A stretch of DNA of 40,815 bases from a virus: positions 1-40,815 of IMG/VR virus record IMGVR_UViG_3300015368_000101; one strand, 5' to 3'. The notes beneath the pieces were generated by a model that worked only from the letters and a program-made list of their open reading frames with translations, made no database searches and was not told where the DNA came from. The position numbers and the translations under genes were made by a program. Below are positions 4,395 through 40,796 of the stretch, one piece after another; the stretch's first letter is position 1, and each line of letters begins with the position of its first letter.

Positions 4395-6430
4395 TGGAAC
4401 TACAGAATATAGATTACAAAGACTGGTTTATTAATCAGAAGCGTATTCCTGATAAAGACTCTCAGGAGTGTAAACCATTCTTTGATTTCCATAAAGAATT
4501 ATGTTTAAATGGTGCTATGATGGATGGGGTTTATATTAACCCCTTTTTATATTGGCATCTAAATATATGGCATACAGAAGTGGATGTGATTGATGAGCGT
4601 GGAAGAATATCACAAAAATATGCCAATCCCTTTCTACGTGATAATGAATGGATTGTAACAAACGAAATTGACAGAGCTCAGCAAGATAAAAGGGGCTTAG
4701 TCATTCTAGGTATTAGACGTTTTGCTAAGTCCGTTATTGAAGCTAGTTATATAGCATGGGGAGCCACATTTGATGAAAATAGCCAAAACATCATTGCTGG
4801 TTTGAATGCTCCAGATATTAAACTTATTACAGATAAGATTGATAAGGGTTTGAATTTCATTCCTGAATACTGGAGATGGCAGAGGATTGAAGATAACTGG
4901 AAGAACCAAATCACTTTAGGTATTAAAACCAAGAGTGGTGAACGTATTCCATTTTCTTCTATTCTAATTCGTAACCTTGATGAAGGTAATAATGAAGAGG
5001 CAATTGCAGGTACAAAACCACGTAAATTAATTATAGATGAGATTGGTAAAGGAAATTTTCTTAGAGGTTTACAAGCAGCTATTCCAGGTTTCACTACACC
5101 CTATGGTTGGGGATGTTCTCCAATTCTTACTGGTACTGGTGGTGATATGAAGAAATTTATGGATGCTAAGTCTCTAATGTTTGATGTCGAGAACTTTAAT
5201 TTCCTTACATATAATAATGAGAAAGATGATAAACGTATACATGGATTATTTATCAATCATAAGTATAGAATGGAGGCAAAGGAGGAATCTACACTTGGAG
5301 CATTCTTAAAAGAACCTGCTGATTCTCAATTACATAATATAAAAATGTTAGTATCTAATGCAGAAAAAGCTACAGAGATTACTAATAGAAACTTAGAAAG
5401 ACTTAAGAAAGCTGGAGATAGAGTGGCTTATTTAAAAGAGAAGATGTATTATCCACAAGAAGTAGATGATATATTTTTAAATGAGGATACTAACATCTTT
5501 GATATTGAATCAGCTAAGAGACAGAAGTTTAGACTTCAACAACAAGAAAGAACAGGAACTCCTGTTATTCTAATTCTAGAAGAAGAAGGTGTAAAGCATG
5601 AGTTTACAGACAAACTACCTATTACAAACTTCCCTTTAAAGAATAGTGATAATAAAGATGCCCCTGTTATTATATATGAATTCCCAATACAAAATCCAGC
5701 ATATGGATTGTATGTAGCAGGAGTCGATCCTTATAGACAAGGACAATCAGCATATAGCTCCTCTTTGGGAGCAGTTTATATTTATAAACGAATGCATGAT
5801 ATAACAGGTGAGAAGTATCAAGATATGTTTGTAGCTTCTTATTGTGCAAGACCAGATAATAAGGATCATTGGAATGACCAAGCTAGACTTCTTATTAAAT
5901 ATTATAATGCACGTACACTTTGTGAGAATGATGATATATCTTTTATTGAATATATGAAGAGTAAGGGAGATGCACATTATTTAGAGAGACAACCTGATTG
6001 GCTTAAAGAAATTGTTCCAAATACCACTGTAAAAAGAGATTATGGAATTCATCGTTCAAGTCAGAAAATAATTGACTATCTTCACACTTGTTTAAAGAAG
6101 TATATGGAAGAAGCAATACATATAGAGAAGGATGAGAATGGTGTGGTGATAAGAGAAACATTAGGAGTGAATAAAATATTTGATCCTGTATTGTTAGAAG
6201 AAATTATACAATATAATGATTCAGGTAACTTTGACCGTATTATTGCTGCAGAACTAGCTATTGCTCAAGCAGTTAAGATGGACCCAATCATTGGAAAGGT
6301 GGGAGGATCAGGTGATGAAAGAGTGAAAGCAATGTTCACAAAGAAGAAAGGAAATGTATTATTTACAGAATCAAGAGGAGGAATGTTTGGAAGAACTCCT
6401 AGAAAACATAAAAATAAATTGTTTACATAA
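4394..6430 (+). CDS. terL: Terminase large subunit (DNA-packaging ATPase and nuclease)
   Basis: The protein has 678 residues, typical for crAss-like TerL. The ATPase domain has a Walker A-type loop GIRRFAKS at 106-113, with K112/S113, and a Walker B LIIDE at 212-216, with E216 as catalytic glutamate. The RNase-H-like nuclease domain begins with YVAGVDPYRQG, whose D445 is the expected first metal ligand; a second acidic cluster ENDD lies at 511-514. It motors DNA into proheads through the portal and cuts concatemers. The Walker A loop has alanine where most P-loops have glycine before the lysine. It overlaps the portal start by one base (TAATG). Confidence 0.95.
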   Translation: MELQNIDYKDWFINQKRIPDKDSQECKPFFDFHKELCLNGAMMDGVYINPFLYWHLNIWHTEVDVIDERGRISQKYANPFLRDNEWIVTNEIDRAQQDKRGLVILGIRRFAKSVIEASYIAWGATFDENSQNIIAGLNAPDIKLITDKIDKGLNFIPEYWRWQRIEDNWKNQITLGIKTKSGERIPFSSILIRNLDEGNNEEAIAGTKPRKLIIDEIGKGNFLRGLQAAIPGFTTPYGWGCSPILTGTGGDMKKFMDAKSLMFDVENFNFLTYNNEKDDKRIHGLFINHKYRMEAKEESTLGAFLKEPADSQLHNIKMLVSNAEKATEITNRNLERLKKAGDRVAYLKEKMYYPQEVDDIFLNEDTNIFDIESAKRQKFRLQQQERTGTPVILILEEEGVKHEFTDKLPITNFPLKNSDNKDAPVIIYEFPIQNPAYGLYVAGVDPYRQGQSAYSSSLGAVYIYKRMHDITGEKYQDMFVASYCARPDNKDHWNDQARLLIKYYNARTLCENDDISFIEYMKSKGDAHYLERQPDWLKEIVPNTTVKRDYGIHRSSQKIIDYLHTCLKKYMEEAIHIEKDENGVVIRETLGVNKIFDPVLLEEIIQYNDSGNFDRIIAAELAIAQAVKMDPIIGKVGGSGDERVKAMFTKKKGNVLFTESRGGMFGRTPRKHKNKLFT

Positions 6431-9661: not shown

Positions 9662-10945
9662 ATGGCTGAGAATTTAGATAACCAATCATTTGGTAACTTT
9701 AGTATTCAAGATACTATGGAAATGGGAATGGGAAACCAAGAGTTGTTAAACGACTTAATGGGTCCAGAAACCTCAACAACTAATCCAGATGATATTCAGG
9801 ACATTAATACTCCTGATAAAACTACAGAACCTGCACCAGCAAAACAAGCTCCTTCTAAAAAGGATGCTCCTGCAGCAGAAACTGATAGTGAAAAGAAAGA
9901 AGAAGCAACTAAATCACTTCAAGATTTCCTTTTAGGAGATGATAAAGAAGATGAAGAGGAAGAAGCAACTTCTGCTCCTACAAAAACTAAAGCTCCTAAA
10001 GCTGAATCAACTACCGAGGAAAACAAGGATAATGAGGAAGAAGGAGATACTCCTGCTGAATCAACTTTTAGTTCTTTATCTAAAGATTTATTCAAATTAG
10101 GTGTCTTTTCAAAAGAAGATGATGAGGATGAAGAACCAATTACAACTCCTGAACAATTCTTAGAGCGTTTCAACTCTGAGAAAAAGAAAGGAGCTATTGA
10201 AGTAGTAAATAACTTCATTGGTCAATACGGAGAAGATTATCAAAATGCATTTGATGCCATATTTGTAAAAGGGGTTAAACCTGCAGACTATTTTGGCACA
10301 TTTAATAAAATACAGTCATTCACTGAGATGGACCTAACTCAAGAGGCGAATCAAATTGCAGTGTTAAAACAAGCTTTAGTTGATCAAGGCTTTGAGCCTG
10401 AGGATGTTACAACTGAAGTTGAAAGACTTAAAAACTACGGAGACCTTGAATCAGTTGCTACAAAGCATCACAAGGTTTTAGTTAAAAGGGAAGCTGCAAA
10501 GCTTCAAGAACTTGAGCAACAAAGGGAAGTACAATTACAACAACAAGCTCAATATAAGCAACAATACACTGCTAATATTCAAAATGTTCTTCAAGATAAA
10601 TTGAAGGCTAAAGAGTTTGATGGTATTCCTTTGAACCCAAAACTTGCTGGTGAACTACAAGATTTCCTGGTTACAGATAGATACAAAACTCCTACAGGAG
10701 AAATGCTTACAGAGTTTGATCGTACTATCCTAGACCTAAAGAGACCTGAGAATCATGAGAAGAAAGTTAAGGTGGGACTTTTACTAAAGATATTAGAAAA
10801 AGATCCTACATTATCTACCATTCAAAAGACAGGTCTTACCAAAAAGTCCAACGAGTTATTTGGTGAGGTGGCTAGACAAGCTCAGAAGAGTGCAATCAAA
10901 TCAGGAAGTAAAACATCAGCAACTTCTAACTCTTGGTTTGTATAA
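9662..10945 (+). CDS. Acidic internal head protein, candidate scaffolding protein
   Basis: The protein has 427 residues. Residues about 40-165 are low-complexity, rich in Glu, Asp, Lys, Pro, Ala and Thr, and predicted disordered. Residues about 165-420 are helical, with a Gln/Glu-rich coiled coil near 275-310 and a basic C-terminus. Position between portal and major capsid protein plus this composition fits a scaffolding or prohead core protein, which guides capsid assembly and leaves or is degraded before packaging. No protease motif is visible. The 119-bp gap before it contains the leader ACTACATATG at 9655-9664 and no good promoter match. Confidence 0.65.
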   Translation: MAENLDNQSFGNFSIQDTMEMGMGNQELLNDLMGPETSTTNPDDIQDINTPDKTTEPAPAKQAPSKKDAPAAETDSEKKEEATKSLQDFLLGDDKEDEEEEATSAPTKTKAPKAESTTEENKDNEEEGDTPAESTFSSLSKDLFKLGVFSKEDDEDEEPITTPEQFLERFNSEKKKGAIEVVNNFIGQYGEDYQNAFDAIFVKGVKPADYFGTFNKIQSFTEMDLTQEANQIAVLKQALVDQGFEPEDVTTEVERLKNYGDLESVATKHHKVLVKREAAKLQELEQQREVQLQQQAQYKQQYTANIQNVLQDKLKAKEFDGIPLNPKLAGELQDFLVTDRYKTPTGEMLTEFDRTILDLKRPENHEKKVKVGLLLKILEKDPTLSTIQKTGLTKKSNELFGEVARQAQKSAIKSGSKTSATSNSWFV

Positions 10946-10982: not shown

Positions 10983-12536
10983 ATGGCAATTCAAACAATT
11001 CCAGGTTTAACTGGTTTTACCTATGCTAGAGTCGCTTCTATGGACAAGCGTGCTGTAGGTAAATTAACAGATTCTAACCACTTGGAAAGCTTTCACTCTA
11101 CTGAGCCAGCAGATTATGATAAGAAAATCATAAGCCTTTACACTCAGAGTTCTCTTTACAGTAATGACTTCTTGGACATGATTAACAAGAGCACTCCTTA
11201 CTATATTGATAATAATAGTGATGCTTGGAAGTGGCAAGTACAAGTTCCGTACAAATTCCCTAAAATCATTGACATCCCTCAAACTACATTAGACTTGGTT
11301 AAGCCAGGTATCGATGGTCAAGAGTTTCAATTGATTATTGACACTAACGAATTCTCTAAGAATGCAATCGTGTCTGTAGGTACTCGTCAGTATGGTCCTC
11401 GTTTCTATGTAACTAAAGATCCTCAACCTTGGAACGTTGGTTACTTATACACTTTCACTTTGGTTACAGACAATCCAGTTGTTGATTTCGTAAGCCCTAT
11501 CTTTTTAAGAATTGGTATCGAATTAGAATTGGTTGATGCTGCTATCGGTGAGTTTGATCAAGATTTATTAGGTCTTCCTCGTTTGGGTGAGCAAATCACA
11601 ATGTTTGAATCTTTAGGTTCTGCATATGGTTATGAGCACAAAATCACTGAGTGGGCTGATGATAAAATGATGAGAGATGCTTCTGGTAAGCCTTTAGATA
11701 TTTTGGTATATGCTCCTCAAAGACGTAACCAATTACCTTTAACTCGTAATGATGTTAAATGGGAACCATTTATTGAGTTCTGGATGCGTAAATCTATGTT
11801 AGAATTAAAAGTTAAGCGTATGATCTGGGCTAAACCAGGTACCGTTAAAACTAATGGTTCTAAGCAAGAATTGAAGAGAACTTCTGCTGGTGTTTACCAC
11901 AGAATGAGAAATAACGGTAACTTAGTTCAGTACAACCGTGGAGAATTCACTGCAAACTTGATTCGTTCTGTGTTTGGTGATTTGTTCTACAGACGTGTGG
12001 ATGTTAAAGATCGTAGAGTTAAAATGTACACTAATGAAGCTGGTTTCGATGTATTCCAACAAGCTTTGAAGAATGATGCATTAAATTCTGGTTTAACTTT
12101 CATGGCTGATTCTGGTAATCGTTACATGCAAGGAGAAGGACAACATATCACTTACAACTTTGCATTTGATGCAATGGTAACTCGTGAGACTGGTCGTGTT
12201 GAACTTATTCACTTGAAAGAATTAGACTTGCCTCAAACTAACTTAGAATTTGGACAAAACAAGAAATCAACTCCAGTATTTATGGTGTTTGATGTATCTC
12301 CAATGTCTGATGGTTCTATGGTTAACAATATCCGTGAGGTAAGAATGAAGGGTGCACCTTCTATGACTTGGGGTTATATTGATGGTACTCGTCACCACTT
12401 AGGCTTTGCTAAGTCTCAAGGTATGAGTTCTGCAAACAAATTCCCTGGTTATGAATTATGGATGAAAGATCGTTGTGATGTATTTATTGAAGATTTGTCT
12501 CGTACAGTCTTGATTGAAGAAATACCACAATTCTAA
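10983..12536 (+). CDS. Major capsid protein
   Basis: The protein has 517 residues, the expected size for a crAss-like HK97-fold capsid protein, and is encoded after portal and scaffold candidate. Its codon use differs sharply from the neighbours: CGT for arginine and C-ending codons such as AAC, TAC and TTC are frequent, where surrounding genes favour AGA and T-ending codons. This points to selection for very high expression. The leader is an A-rich run (ACAATAAAAAAATG) without Shine-Dalgarno. The N-terminus contains GFTYAR (about residues 11-16), which also occurs in the cargo protein at 30633-33119. The protein forms the icosahedral shell. Confidence 0.87.
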   Translation: MAIQTIPGLTGFTYARVASMDKRAVGKLTDSNHLESFHSTEPADYDKKIISLYTQSSLYSNDFLDMINKSTPYYIDNNSDAWKWQVQVPYKFPKIIDIPQTTLDLVKPGIDGQEFQLIIDTNEFSKNAIVSVGTRQYGPRFYVTKDPQPWNVGYLYTFTLVTDNPVVDFVSPIFLRIGIELELVDAAIGEFDQDLLGLPRLGEQITMFESLGSAYGYEHKITEWADDKMMRDASGKPLDILVYAPQRRNQLPLTRNDVKWEPFIEFWMRKSMLELKVKRMIWAKPGTVKTNGSKQELKRTSAGVYHRMRNNGNLVQYNRGEFTANLIRSVFGDLFYRRVDVKDRRVKMYTNEAGFDVFQQALKNDALNSGLTFMADSGNRYMQGEGQHITYNFAFDAMVTRETGRVELIHLKELDLPQTNLEFGQNKKSTPVFMVFDVSPMSDGSMVNNIREVRMKGAPSMTWGYIDGTRHHLGFAKSQGMSSANKFPGYELWMKDRCDVFIEDLSRTVLIEEIPQF

Positions 12537-12543
12537 AAATCTA

Positions 12544-12700
12544 GGGCAAAGGTTAGAACTAATGCTCTACAAATACCGAGAAGAATTGCCCCCCACTCAT
12601 CAAAAGTGGGGGAGTCTTCTCACAATCACAGATGGACATGTACAAGTAAATGCTGTACAGTGTTCCCTTCGATGGGAACCATCTGCAAATAAAACTACAT
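12544..12700 (+). ncRNA. Structured leader RNA between capsid gene and HNH endonuclease
   Basis: The 164-base gap after the capsid gene folds compactly. Helix A: GAGAAGA (12578-12584) with TCTTCTC (12615-12621), enclosing CCCCCACT (12590-12597) with AGTGGGGG (12605-12612) around a 7-base loop. Element B is a three-way junction: CAGATG (12629-12634) with CATCTG (12680-12685), enclosing TGTACA hairpin arms at 12639-12644 and 12654-12659 and GTTCCC (12662-12667) with GGGAAC (12674-12679). GGGCAA (12544-12549) can alternatively pair with TTGCCC (12586-12591), competing with helix A. No T-tract follows, so it is not a simple terminator. Confidence 0.6.
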
Positions 12701-13039
12701 ATGGGTAGGTACAGATCTGTAAATAAAGAAGAATCTATAAAACTCAATAGAAGTAGTTCTAGAGAGGTTTGTAAAAAGAGAAACAGAGAATTTGTAACTG
12801 ATTACTTAAATAATCATCCTTGTGTAGACTGTGGAAACACAGATATAAGAGTTCTAGAATTTGACCACATAAATGATGATAAAGAAGGAAACATATCTCA
12901 TGCAGTAAATAATGCATGGTCTTTAGAAAGACTAACAAGTGAGATAAATAAATGTGAAGTGAGATGTGCAAATTGTCATAGAATTAAAACAATTGAAAGA
13001 AGAAATCAACTTTTTATAAACCAAACAAAAACTACATAA
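12701..13039 (+). CDS. HNH homing endonuclease inserted after the capsid gene
   Basis: The protein has 112 residues from the ATG at 12701. An upstream in-frame ATG at 12650 would lie inside the leader's RNA helices and is rejected. It has a zinc-stabilised HNH (beta-beta-alpha-metal) nuclease core: C41-x2-C44, the LEFDHI motif with D55-H56, and C89-x2-C92 followed by H93. A basic N-terminus could bind DNA. Free-standing enzymes of this type spread by cutting phage genomes that lack them. The sequence AAAACTACAT-ATGGGTA at its start is echoed at 13027-13049 around the next gene's start, suggesting an insertion that copied local start-site DNA. It does not interrupt a conserved gene visibly. 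Confidence 0.88.
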   Translation: MGRYRSVNKEESIKLNRSSSREVCKKRNREFVTDYLNNHPCVDCGNTDIRVLEFDHINDDKEGNISHAVNNAWSLERLTSEINKCEVRCANCHRIKTIERRNQLFINQTKTT

Positions 13040-13042
13040 AAA

Positions 13043-14011
13043 ATGGGTAAGATAGGAAAAATCTCCACTTTAAAGAAGGAGTATAACAATTCTCAGTTAC
13101 AAACTATGCAAGGTGGACTTGCTCTTAAAGGCTTTACAAGAATTCCTGGTACAGGAGTTTTTAAGTATCCTTATAAAGAACTTGATGGACAGTACAGAAC
13201 AGGCTTAGATGCTAGTGCTGCATACATCAGAAGAATACAAGATCCAACTGAAAGAGAGTTAGAAATTGAAAGAGTTACTAATTTACGTAAAAGATTAGAA
13301 GCTGCTTTAGGTGATATTGATTTAGGTCCAAGATCTCAATTTTGGAACTATGGTTTATCAACTTCTTCAGATGACATGTTACATGTGCAAGCTGTTAAAT
13401 TATTAGATGGTGATAACTATTTTGATTTTAGTAATCCATCTCAAGAATTAGCCTTTGCTTGGTTAAGAGTTCATCCAACAATTGCTTCTAGCTATCAAGC
13501 TTGGGAGCGTGGTGAATATCCAGCAGATACACAATTCTATGTAGCAGATGATGAGATTGAAAATGCAGTGATATTTAAGAAGAAGCAATTAATAAATAGA
13601 GCTATTATTAAGTTTGATGCAATGTCTGCAGAGAAGAAACGTAAGGTGGCTAGATTATTAGGATTACCAGTAAGTGAAGATTCTAGAGAAGACATGGTAT
13701 ATAATCAAGTGGATAACCTATTAAAACAAACAGAATTCAAGAATGGTAAACATCAAGGTTTAAATCCTGTACAGGTATTTGGCCAGTTTGCAGACATGAA
13801 GGAAAACTTACTCCATATTAAAGATTTAGTAAAACAAGCTATAACTCACTCTATATATCGTGTAAAACCTAATGGTAAAATTACTGAAGGAGAAAATGAG
13901 ATAGCTAAAGATGAAGAGGATTTAGTGAAGTTCTTAATAGATGAAGATAACCAAGATGCGTTATTAACATTAGAAGGCAAATTGAAAAGCAAAAAATTAG
14001 CATCGATATGA
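13043..14011 (+). CDS. Structural-block protein, function unknown
   Basis: The protein has 322 residues and starts MGKIGKISTLKKEYN behind an A-rich leader. It is mixed alpha/beta with a helical, charged C-terminal half (about 175-322); no signal peptide, membrane segment or cysteine motif. It lies between the capsid gene and a connector-like gene, and its stop overlaps the next start (ATGA at 14008-14011), so both are probably made together. By position it should be a head or neck component or an assembly factor. I recognise the overall crAss-like synteny but not a named family. Confidence 0.7.
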   Translation: MGKIGKISTLKKEYNNSQLQTMQGGLALKGFTRIPGTGVFKYPYKELDGQYRTGLDASAAYIRRIQDPTERELEIERVTNLRKRLEAALGDIDLGPRSQFWNYGLSTSSDDMLHVQAVKLLDGDNYFDFSNPSQELAFAWLRVHPTIASSYQAWERGEYPADTQFYVADDEIENAVIFKKKQLINRAIIKFDAMSAEKKRKVARLLGLPVSEDSREDMVYNQVDNLLKQTEFKNGKHQGLNPVQVFGQFADMKENLLHIKDLVKQAITHSIYRVKPNGKITEGENEIAKDEEDLVKFLIDEDNQDALLTLEGKLKSKKLASI

Positions 14012-21181: not shown

Positions 21182-21191
21182 TATAAAATAT

Positions 21192-21256
21192 CAAAAACCC
21201 TGTTTGTTGGTTTACAGGGAGTCCCCTGGGGTTTCTACCCTGGGGGTTTTTGTTTT
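21192..21256 (+). terminator. Strong intrinsic terminator closing the adhesion block
   Basis: CCCCTGGGGT (21223-21232) pairs over 10 bp, with two G-U wobbles, with ACCCTGGGGG (21237-21246) around a TTCT loop and is followed by TTTTTGTTTT. Upstream, CCCTG (21198-21202) can pair with CAGGG (21215-21219), and CAAAAACCC (21192-21200) can alternatively pair with GGGTTTTTG (21244-21252). Confidence 0.85.
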
Positions 21257-21304
21257 AGCTCTAATTAGATTGATTAATCTATATAATCAAATTAGTTAAT
21301 TAAA

Positions 21305-21337
21305 TTTGGTGAATATCAAAAATATTCCCTATCTTTA
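21305..21337 (+). promoter_or_regulatory. Probable Bacteroidota-type promoter for the tail block
   Basis: TTTG (21305-21308) and TATCTTTA (21330-21337) lie 21 bases apart, close to TTTG-N19-TAnnTTTG with one mismatch in the last base. It sits between a strong terminator and the ATG at 21364, where a new transcription start is needed. Confidence 0.5.
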
Positions 21338-21363
21338 CAGTAATTTTAACTAAACTTAACCGT

Positions 21364-38906: not shown

Positions 38907-40796
38907 ATGGCTGATCAACTTCCTGATAATACTCCTCCTTCAACTTTAGGCATTGACTTACCAAGTGTTAGTGAACAGGCAACTCCTGCTCCTGAAACTT
39001 TTGAACAATTTAAGAGTGGTATAGTTAATTTAGGAGGCCCTGAAATTAAGGTGCCACCTATTCCTGGTATTGGAGGGAATCCTGGTGCTGATGATAAACC
39101 AAAACTTACAGCTTTACAACAAGCTTTAATGATAGCTAATTCTACAAAAGACTCATCTAAATATGCATATGATGTTTCTGAGCTTTCTGATAGATATAAA
39201 ACTGTTCTTCCAGATGTAAATAATGAATACTTACATCATGAAGGTCAAACTTCAATGGATAGAATTGGGAATGCTGCTGTTAACTTAGTAGCAAAAACTG
39301 CTGGATATTTAACACAAACAGCTGGGTTTATTGTTGGTGCACCTGCTGCACTTGCTACATGGGATATATCAAATCTTACAGATAACTTTTTAGTTAAAGC
39401 AGGTACTGGAATTACTAAAGGAGTTGAAGATACTAATCCAATATACAAAGGAAAACAATATACAGAAGGAAACATCTGGCAAAAACTTAGTACTACTGAT
39501 TGGTGGTTAAGTGATGGTATAGATAGAGCTGCATTAACTGTAGCTACAATTGCTCCAGGATTTGCTGAAACAAGAGGACTTGGATTATTTGGTACATTAG
39601 CAACAGATGCAGCTGAAACAGGAAGTGCTGTAAAAGCTACAGGTGTAGCTACTAAACTTATAGAGAGTGCTATGGCAAATCCTCAAGAGTTTGGTGCAAT
39701 GGGAAAACTATTCTCAAAAGGACTTTATAAAGCTGCTGCAATGGGAGGAGTAACAGGAGAGGCTGCTACTACTAATTTAATGAGATCATTAAATGCTGCT
39801 GAGTTATTTGGAATGGGTGTTGTAGGGCAAAGTGGATTAAATGCTAAAGAAGCACAAGAAAGTGTTAAGCAATCTTTATTAGAGCAAAAGGCTCAGGGAT
39901 TAAATAATTTTACAAATGAGCAAATTGAAGAAAGAGCTGCTCAGGCTGCTGTAAAAGGATTCTGGTACACAGCTCCTTTATCATTTGTAAATGAATTAAT
40001 AGAACTTCCAATGTTATTCTCTTCAGTGAGAAATGTAAAAAACTCTTTATTAAATAAAGTGTTTAATCCTGAAACAGGAGAAGTGCTAGCTAATGCGTTA
40101 GAGAAACAAGCTCCTAAATGGTACAATGTAGCTATTAGAGCTGTTGGTACAGGTTTTGAACATGGTCAAAATGAAAGTATGCAAGTGGCTATTGGTAGAA
40201 CACTTGATGAAGAATATGGTGCAAAGAAAGATAAAAGAGGTAGAATAATATCAGGAACTGGCTTAGGAGAAACTGGTGAAACAAGTTCTATATTACAGAA
40301 CTTTGTTGATAACATTAATGATCCTAATGGTCAAAACAATATTGCTTTGGGTACAATCCAAGGTATACTTACATCATTAGTTGGTTATGGTAAAGATATT
40401 AGAACAGGTAGATTTACAAAAGAACTTGCACAAAGAAAAGCTGTATATGATCAAATAACTGAAGCAAAGCTTGATAGAAGATATTATGAAACAGACTTTG
40501 CTCAGAGAGATAGTAATGGTAAAATGATTACTGATGCAAAAGGTAATGTACAATTTGATCAACAAAAGTTAGCAGATGCTGGTTTATCTTTAGCTGGTAT
40601 TACTAAGAATGTACAAGATATGTATGATGCATTACAAGCTGAAAATCATACAAAGGTACAAGAACTTCAAGATAAGAGTTTAGCAGGTTTTGCTTACAAC
40701 TTTCTTAATGATACTAATGGTGTACAGCATTTAAATAATATACTAAAGGTAAAATCTGAACAATTAGCAAATGATTCTAATAGAGCTAATGATATT
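38907..40796 (+). CDS. Large internal virion protein, 3' end cut by the contig edge
   Basis: The frame is open for 630 codons from the ATG at 38907 (MADQLPDNTPPSTLGIDLPS) to the adapter; the stop codon is not in the window. The N-terminus (1-65) is Pro/Gly-rich and flexible. Residues about 110-300 contain small-residue hydrophobic stretches (VNLVAKTAGYLTQTAGFIVG, GFAETRGLGLFGTL, AAAMGGVTGEAATTNL) that could associate with membranes, like pore-forming ejection proteins. The rest is charged and helical. It follows the 36178 gene by two bases and so shares its transcript. In crAss-like phages large RNA polymerase genes usually follow this region. Confidence 0.75.

Follow-up and report, generated by a model that had tools for sequence, protein, structure and literature searches.

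Organization of the capsid locus

The DNA analysed here, referred to below as the window, is a stretch of 40,815 nucleotides and represents a fragment of a crAss-like phage; the neighbouring genes match portal and virion proteins in PHROG. The gene for the major capsid protein (MCP) is followed by an open reading frame for an HNH endonuclease and then by the next late gene (Table 1). The last base of the MCP stop codon is 12536 and the ATG of the HNH gene begins at 12701, leaving a gap of 164 nt that is flanked by two intact genes. The RNA encoded in this gap is the 3′ untranslated region of the MCP message. The A-rich stretch between the fold and the HNH gene is probably a generic translation-initiation sequence lying outside the RNA fold, since the gene at 9662 has a comparable one in front of it. 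In a preliminary description of the locus, ordinary gaps in this genome were taken to be a few bases long; most are indeed short, but others span 86–182 nt.

The region 791–2555 of the window is long and has no obvious plus-strand gene in the listed set; it contains AT-rich repeats, GC-rich hairpins and a minus-strand open reading frame (1057–1470). The end of the contig (40797–40815) reads CTGTCTCTTATACACATCT, which we take to be a Nextera (Tn5 mosaic end) adapter, an assembly artefact.

Table 1. Features of the capsid locus and of the intergenic RNA (positions in the window).
Feature	Position	Strand	Evidence or remark
Major capsid protein gene (MCP)	10983–12536	+	Pfam Crass_capsid, E = 1.5e-25; PHROG major head protein
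Domain I, variable 5′ hairpin module, type B (TAGGGC...AAAGGTTAGAACTAAT...GCTCTA)	12542–12569	+	Minimum free energy; closing-stem covariation
Domain II hairpin	12578–12621	+	Outer stem 12578–12584/12615–12621; inner stem 12590–12597/12605–12612
Domain III, three-way junction	12629–12685	+	Covariation
Junction stem P1	12629–12635/12679–12685	+	7 bp, 100% paired
Junction stem P2a	12636–12638/12661–12663	+	All P2 pairs change on both sides
Junction stem P2b	12639–12644/12654–12659	+	All P2 pairs change on both sides
Junction bulged G	12660	+	
Junction stem P3	12664–12667/12674–12677	+	All pairs change on both sides
Junction loop UUCGAU	12668–12673	+	
Unstructured A-rich initiation leader, ending AACTACAT	12686–12700	+	
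Free-standing HNH endonuclease ORF, 112 aa	12701–13039	+	PHROG HNH families, E to 1.2e-24
Next late gene, 322 aa, position of crAss001 gp33	13043–14011	+	Normal downstream neighbour of the RNA

Fold of the intergenic RNA

The gap folds with a minimum free energy of −55.1 kcal/mol, compared with a mean of −32.8 for shuffled sequences (z = −5.71), and none of 200 dinucleotide shuffles was as low. Three parts make up the element: at the 5′ end a hairpin of variable type, then a GC-rich hairpin in two tiers, and last a three-way junction that has a bulged G and a loop opening with UUC. The second hairpin and the junction are located where the preliminary description had placed them; the 5′ hairpin, in which 12542–12547 pairs with 12564–12569 (TAGGGC/GCTCTA), is a third folded element that was absent from it. 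The junction had been drawn with three perfect 6-bp stems. While the junction itself is borne out, the proposed third stem (GTTCCC/GGGAAC) was set aside because it needs C12679 of P1, which is paired with 12635 in 92/92 of the aligned sequences, with several pair types. The competing pairing that had been proposed between GGGCAA and TTGCCC is present in the window but is not conserved: among 77 distinct gaps, it occurs only in the window and in the near-identical locus L001.

The closing stem of domain I covaries in relatives of the window (TAGAGC/GCTCTA, TAGAAC/GTTCTA). The type B module is found in 11 of the 77 distinct gaps, its closing stem covarying there, and a hairpin with a TARNA loop, mostly of the UCUAAGGA-UAGUA-UCCUUAGA type, was scored in 34 of the 77, instead of or beside the type B module. 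Hairpin modules 5′ of domain II are exchangeable in many loci, and besides the UAGUA type they include GACACCAAUGGUGU and TAGAGC-AAGGTTAGAACTAC-GCTCTA. L052 and L065 each have more than one such module, and in L110, L123 and L140 the junction is separated from domain II by an additional hairpin-like domain.

Covariation, strand and unpaired bases

The seed alignment comprised 26 sequences; a first MAFFT alignment (A2) was dropped for misplaced gaps in P1, and a cleaner seed (A3) was used. Both-side changes are seen in 15 of the 34 pairs of the seed, and 0/500 shuffles were as good. A covariance model made from the seed was then used to align 92 distinct sequences, in which 30 of 33 pairs change on both sides and 95.2% of cells are paired. 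The double-change cells number 483, compared with 110 ± 11 in shuffles (0/500) and with 30–56 in a slid control, where the partner was moved by 1–3 columns. In domain II all 13 modelled pairs change on both sides, with 95–97% of cells paired. Compensatory changes in the three-way junction, which the preliminary description had named as support for a functional RNA, are found throughout P2 and P3; P1 swaps between CAGATGG/CCATCTG and CAGAGTG/CACTCTG with pairing intact. The pairs with the highest mutual information are modelled pairs or their immediate stacking neighbours.

The 92-row alignment was made by fitting to the model, and a pattern including P1 and part of the loop had brought in many of its rows; for this reason a separate count was made of the 37 rows from outside the pattern searches (the capsid-selected loci together with the window, L002 and L003). 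This subset gives 27 pairs and 182 double-change cells, where shuffling gives 43 on average and 63 at most, and the P1 swap is seen in capsid-selected loci too (L087, L112, L139, L142 and L150). G-U pairs outnumber A-C mismatches by 124 to 42 in the 92 sequences and by 41 to 16 in the MCP-selected subset; the strand of the RNA is therefore that of the MCP mRNA.

The bulged G is conserved in 89/92 sequences (36/37 in the subset), the UUC of the loop in at least 91/92 (at least 36/37), and the C and A immediately after P1 (columns 166 and 168) in 92/92 (37/37). Such conservation of unpaired bases suggests recognition of the junction by a protein or through a tertiary contact. The element is a conserved structured RNA, with its fold, strand and conservation established.

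Conserved unpaired bases are also a property of the HK022 put and EAR RNAs, which are sense-strand, multi-helix RNAs of late or long operons. The RNA described here, likewise multi-helix, sense-strand and present as a single copy inside a long late gene block, could be a recognition RNA of this kind, for modification of the polymerase in processive antitermination or for an RNA-binding protein, as in autoregulation by a virion protein. It has no match to a put or EAR family in Rfam, however, and antitermination elements usually lie near the start of an operon, not after the capsid gene; we consider this reading unlikely.

Distribution of the RNA

Loci were fetched by capsid protein alone, free of motif selection, in two sets of 80 that overlap in some contigs; a divergent capsid was the starting point for the second. 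In 80/80 loci of the first set and 80/80 of the second, the RNA lies in the interval from MCP to the next late gene. A search with the junction alone returned 51 contigs, nearly all of them without HNH, and its matches sit between the capsid gene and the gene that follows HNH in the window. There is one copy of the RNA per genome (14 records of 90–118 kb). A second copy suggested by search at window 39953–40044 (E 0.02–0.11, varying with the search) was rejected as a chance match, being located inside coding sequence with 29% GC. A compact, conserved, single-copy RNA might be cut from the late transcript and act in trans as a small RNA, but there is no conserved long unpaired seed and very few unpaired bases are conserved, so that such a role appears improbable.

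The fold was not found in crAss001 (positions 1–50000), FpV4, Leptolyngbya phage Lbo-JY46 or eight Lbo-like contigs (L277–L284), nor was the RNA found in bacterial genomes by exact-pattern search. No family of Rfam 15 was matched at gathering score (window and relatives) or at a permissive E-value of up to 10 (window); the hits were at chance level, as for LPR10 with 21 bits where the cutoff is 69. A nucleotide search of named phages with the leader gave only short chance matches, and literature searches gave no description of a structured RNA in crAss-like phages, a capsid-linked RNA or a terminator. The RNA belongs to no described family; it is universal in a widespread, uncultured group of crAss-like phages and adds an unlisted family to the known RNAs.

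The HNH gene as a separate insert

The preliminary description had tied the RNA to the endonuclease, as a regulator of its expression, a remnant of a self-splicing intron or an RNA partner. The RNA does lie directly 5′ of HNH in the window and in its nearest HNH relatives (L001–L003), which retain the leader with its fold. In 76 of the 80 loci of the first MCP-selected set, however, the RNA is present without HNH; an HNH gene occupies the gap between MCP and the next gene in the other four (L074, L075, L090 and L091), and among all loci a window-type HNH is found downstream of the RNA in 10 of 147 distinct gaps. The suggestion of a functional RNA thus stands, with covariation above both controls and presence in every MCP-selected locus, whereas the link to the endonuclease does not.

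Comparison of the empty sites in L053 and L076 with the filled sites in the window, L002 and L003 locates the insert after the RNA, at the ATG of the next gene. Where HNH is absent, the A-rich leader comes after the RNA and leads into ACTACAT-ATGGGTAAG, with which the next gene (MGK...) begins. Where HNH is present, it is the HNH gene (MGK or MGR) that starts at this ACTACAT-ATGGG, and the next gene has a further A-rich leader of its own in front of it. In L148 the HNH gene has been deleted to a scar, ATGGGTAAGTTTTTTATAAACCAATAA (MGKFFINQ, then stop), and the RNA is intact. In L222 a different and unrelated HNH-type ORF of about 150 aa (CxxC ... HH ... CSNCH) is located before the RNA, between it and the MCP stop. 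Homologues of the HNH gene lacking the leader, which the preliminary description had itself named as evidence against its proposal, are in effect what the distant relatives represent: none of those in named phages and IMG/VR has such a leader, and the upstream sequence in L005–L019 is different, mostly an overlapping or abutting gene.

The HEARO (OMEGA) RNA of IscB lies upstream of an HNH-containing ORF, an arrangement that the window resembles in having an RNA 5′ of an HNH ORF; here, by contrast, the RNA is independent of HNH and the ORF has only 112 aa. The HEARO covariance model matched neither the window (E up to 10) nor the relatives (gathering score), and membership of this class was rejected, as linkage of the RNA to the nuclease gene fails. 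A group I intron was likewise rejected, with no Rfam intron match and an element placed between two intact genes. A role of the RNA in the service of the endonuclease, whether as regulator, partner or intron remnant, is very improbable: the HNH gene lies outside the RNA system, and the RNA is independent of it. Adjacency alone is accordingly not sufficient to call a structured RNA 'HNH-associated'; the empty sites show the nuclease to be a newcomer.

The HNH gene matches families of free-standing phage HNH homing endonucleases (PHROG 2255, 3106 and 4234), and is sporadic and diverse as these are. An alignment of 10 inserts contains a zinc-type HNH sequence (CxxC ... DH ... CxxCH); a search of the PDB with the HNH protein gave nothing useful. 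The inserts are 49–99% identical to the window HNH while the capsid proteins are at least 92% identical, which is the pattern of a mobile homing-type gene. As judged from its sequence, the gene is an ordinary free-standing homing-type endonuclease that has inserted at the ATG of the next gene, with homing as its predicted activity. The MCP junction seems to be a repeated landing site for HNH genes. The insert in L266 is longer, with an N-terminal helix-turn-helix-like segment (KILQLRSEGKTYKEISEILDCSMSIISYH) that is perhaps a target-recognition domain. In the Flavobacterium phage FpV4 (L275) an HNH-annotated gene (5477–6259) is located directly after the capsid gene and is preceded by a promoter-like motif, TATCTTTG.

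Other insertions are found at the same place, with a tRNA gene between the RNA and the next gene in L110, L123 (4728–4801) and L218. These bear on the possibility that the RNA is a leader or riboswitch controlling translation of the next gene, a role that would suit the HNH-free loci L053 and L076, where about 27 nt separate the end of the RNA from the start codon. In several genomes HNH genes (about 340 nt) or tRNAs intervene and the RNA is intact, and the A-rich initiation leader is outside the fold. Translational control of the next gene is made less likely by inserts of up to several hundred bases separating it from the RNA, and we regard it as improbable. Since HNH genes and tRNAs flank the RNA without destroying it, the RNA need not adjoin the start codon of the next gene.

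Transcription signals

In the RNA-bearing part of the 77 distinct gaps there is no T run of five or more, save for the HNH scar in L148, and no Bacteroidota-type promoter pattern. A terminator consensus scan of the plus strand at the element gave no terminator-like site. An intrinsic transcription terminator was rejected on these grounds, no hairpin with a U-run being present on the transcript strand.

In more distant crAss-like phages the equivalent gap often contains one hairpin, from which it follows that an element at the end of the capsid message recurs at this place. The hairpins of crAss001 and L280 resemble intrinsic terminators; like the window RNA they include a GC-rich hairpin in the gap between MCP and the gp33 position, but they consist of a single hairpin with a T-tract, whereas the window family combines two to three domains that covary, has a three-way junction and lacks a T-tract. 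Their presence at the same position would agree with a transcription attenuator, in which domain II or III stops the polymerase part of the time after the capsid gene in a factor-dependent or U-tract-poor manner, as would the pyrimidine-rich UCUUCUC that follows the GC-rich hairpin. That tract, however, takes part in the pairing of the outer stem, which covaries, and a terminator would not need a three-way junction whose loop bases are invariant. Together with the lack of T runs and of a site in the consensus scan, this makes an attenuator rather unlikely.

A U-tract terminator does occur elsewhere in the same genome, near 21200. The region 21182–21363 of the window has a strong hairpin, followed by TTTTTG and then by TATCTTTA, a Bacteroidota-type promoter-like motif, and is probably a real transcription boundary.

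Possible role in capsid expression

The element is positioned within the late gene block, on the sense strand and directly after the gene for MCP, the protein needed in the largest amount. It represents a new family of capsid 3′-UTR RNAs of crAss-like phages. Our leading interpretation of its role, which we hold tentatively, is that it marks the end of the capsid message and limits decay, read-through into the genes downstream, or both. The RNA would block 3′-to-5′ decay of the capsid message, and/or cause the late transcript to be processed, or partly ended, just past the capsid cistron, so that the very abundant capsid protein would have a message that is more plentiful or lasts longer than that for the tail proteins downstream. 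Control of capsid expression at the level of RNA is indicated, a subject on which the literature searched held nothing. The T7 Tφ and RNase III sites are phage late-mRNA 3′ structures that set mRNA ends and stability; they resemble the present element in being structured RNA at the end of a cistron, but differ from it in fold, and the role here is one that we infer.

Against this interpretation, a stability element rarely needs invariant unpaired bases, for which a protein- or RNA polymerase-binding site is a better fit, and the more distant crAss-like phages examined lack the fold. Recognition by a protein or polymerase is a serious alternative to a limit on decay or read-through, precisely because the unpaired bases are invariant. 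The RNA may in that case be a new phage RNA class whose bulged G and UUC loop are recognised by a phage or host protein or by the late RNA polymerase, forming a processive control element after the capsid gene, shared by a whole environmental clade, that replaces the simple terminator of crAss001; we think this rather doubtful.

An effect of the RNA on the lifetime or ending of the capsid message would also be in keeping with the stoichiometry of the virion. In crAss001 the asymmetric unit contains nine copies of MCP, while the ring proteins, encoded just downstream of MCP, form dodecamers (PMC10172136). By analogy, the phages described here may have a similar need for an element that favours the capsid message.
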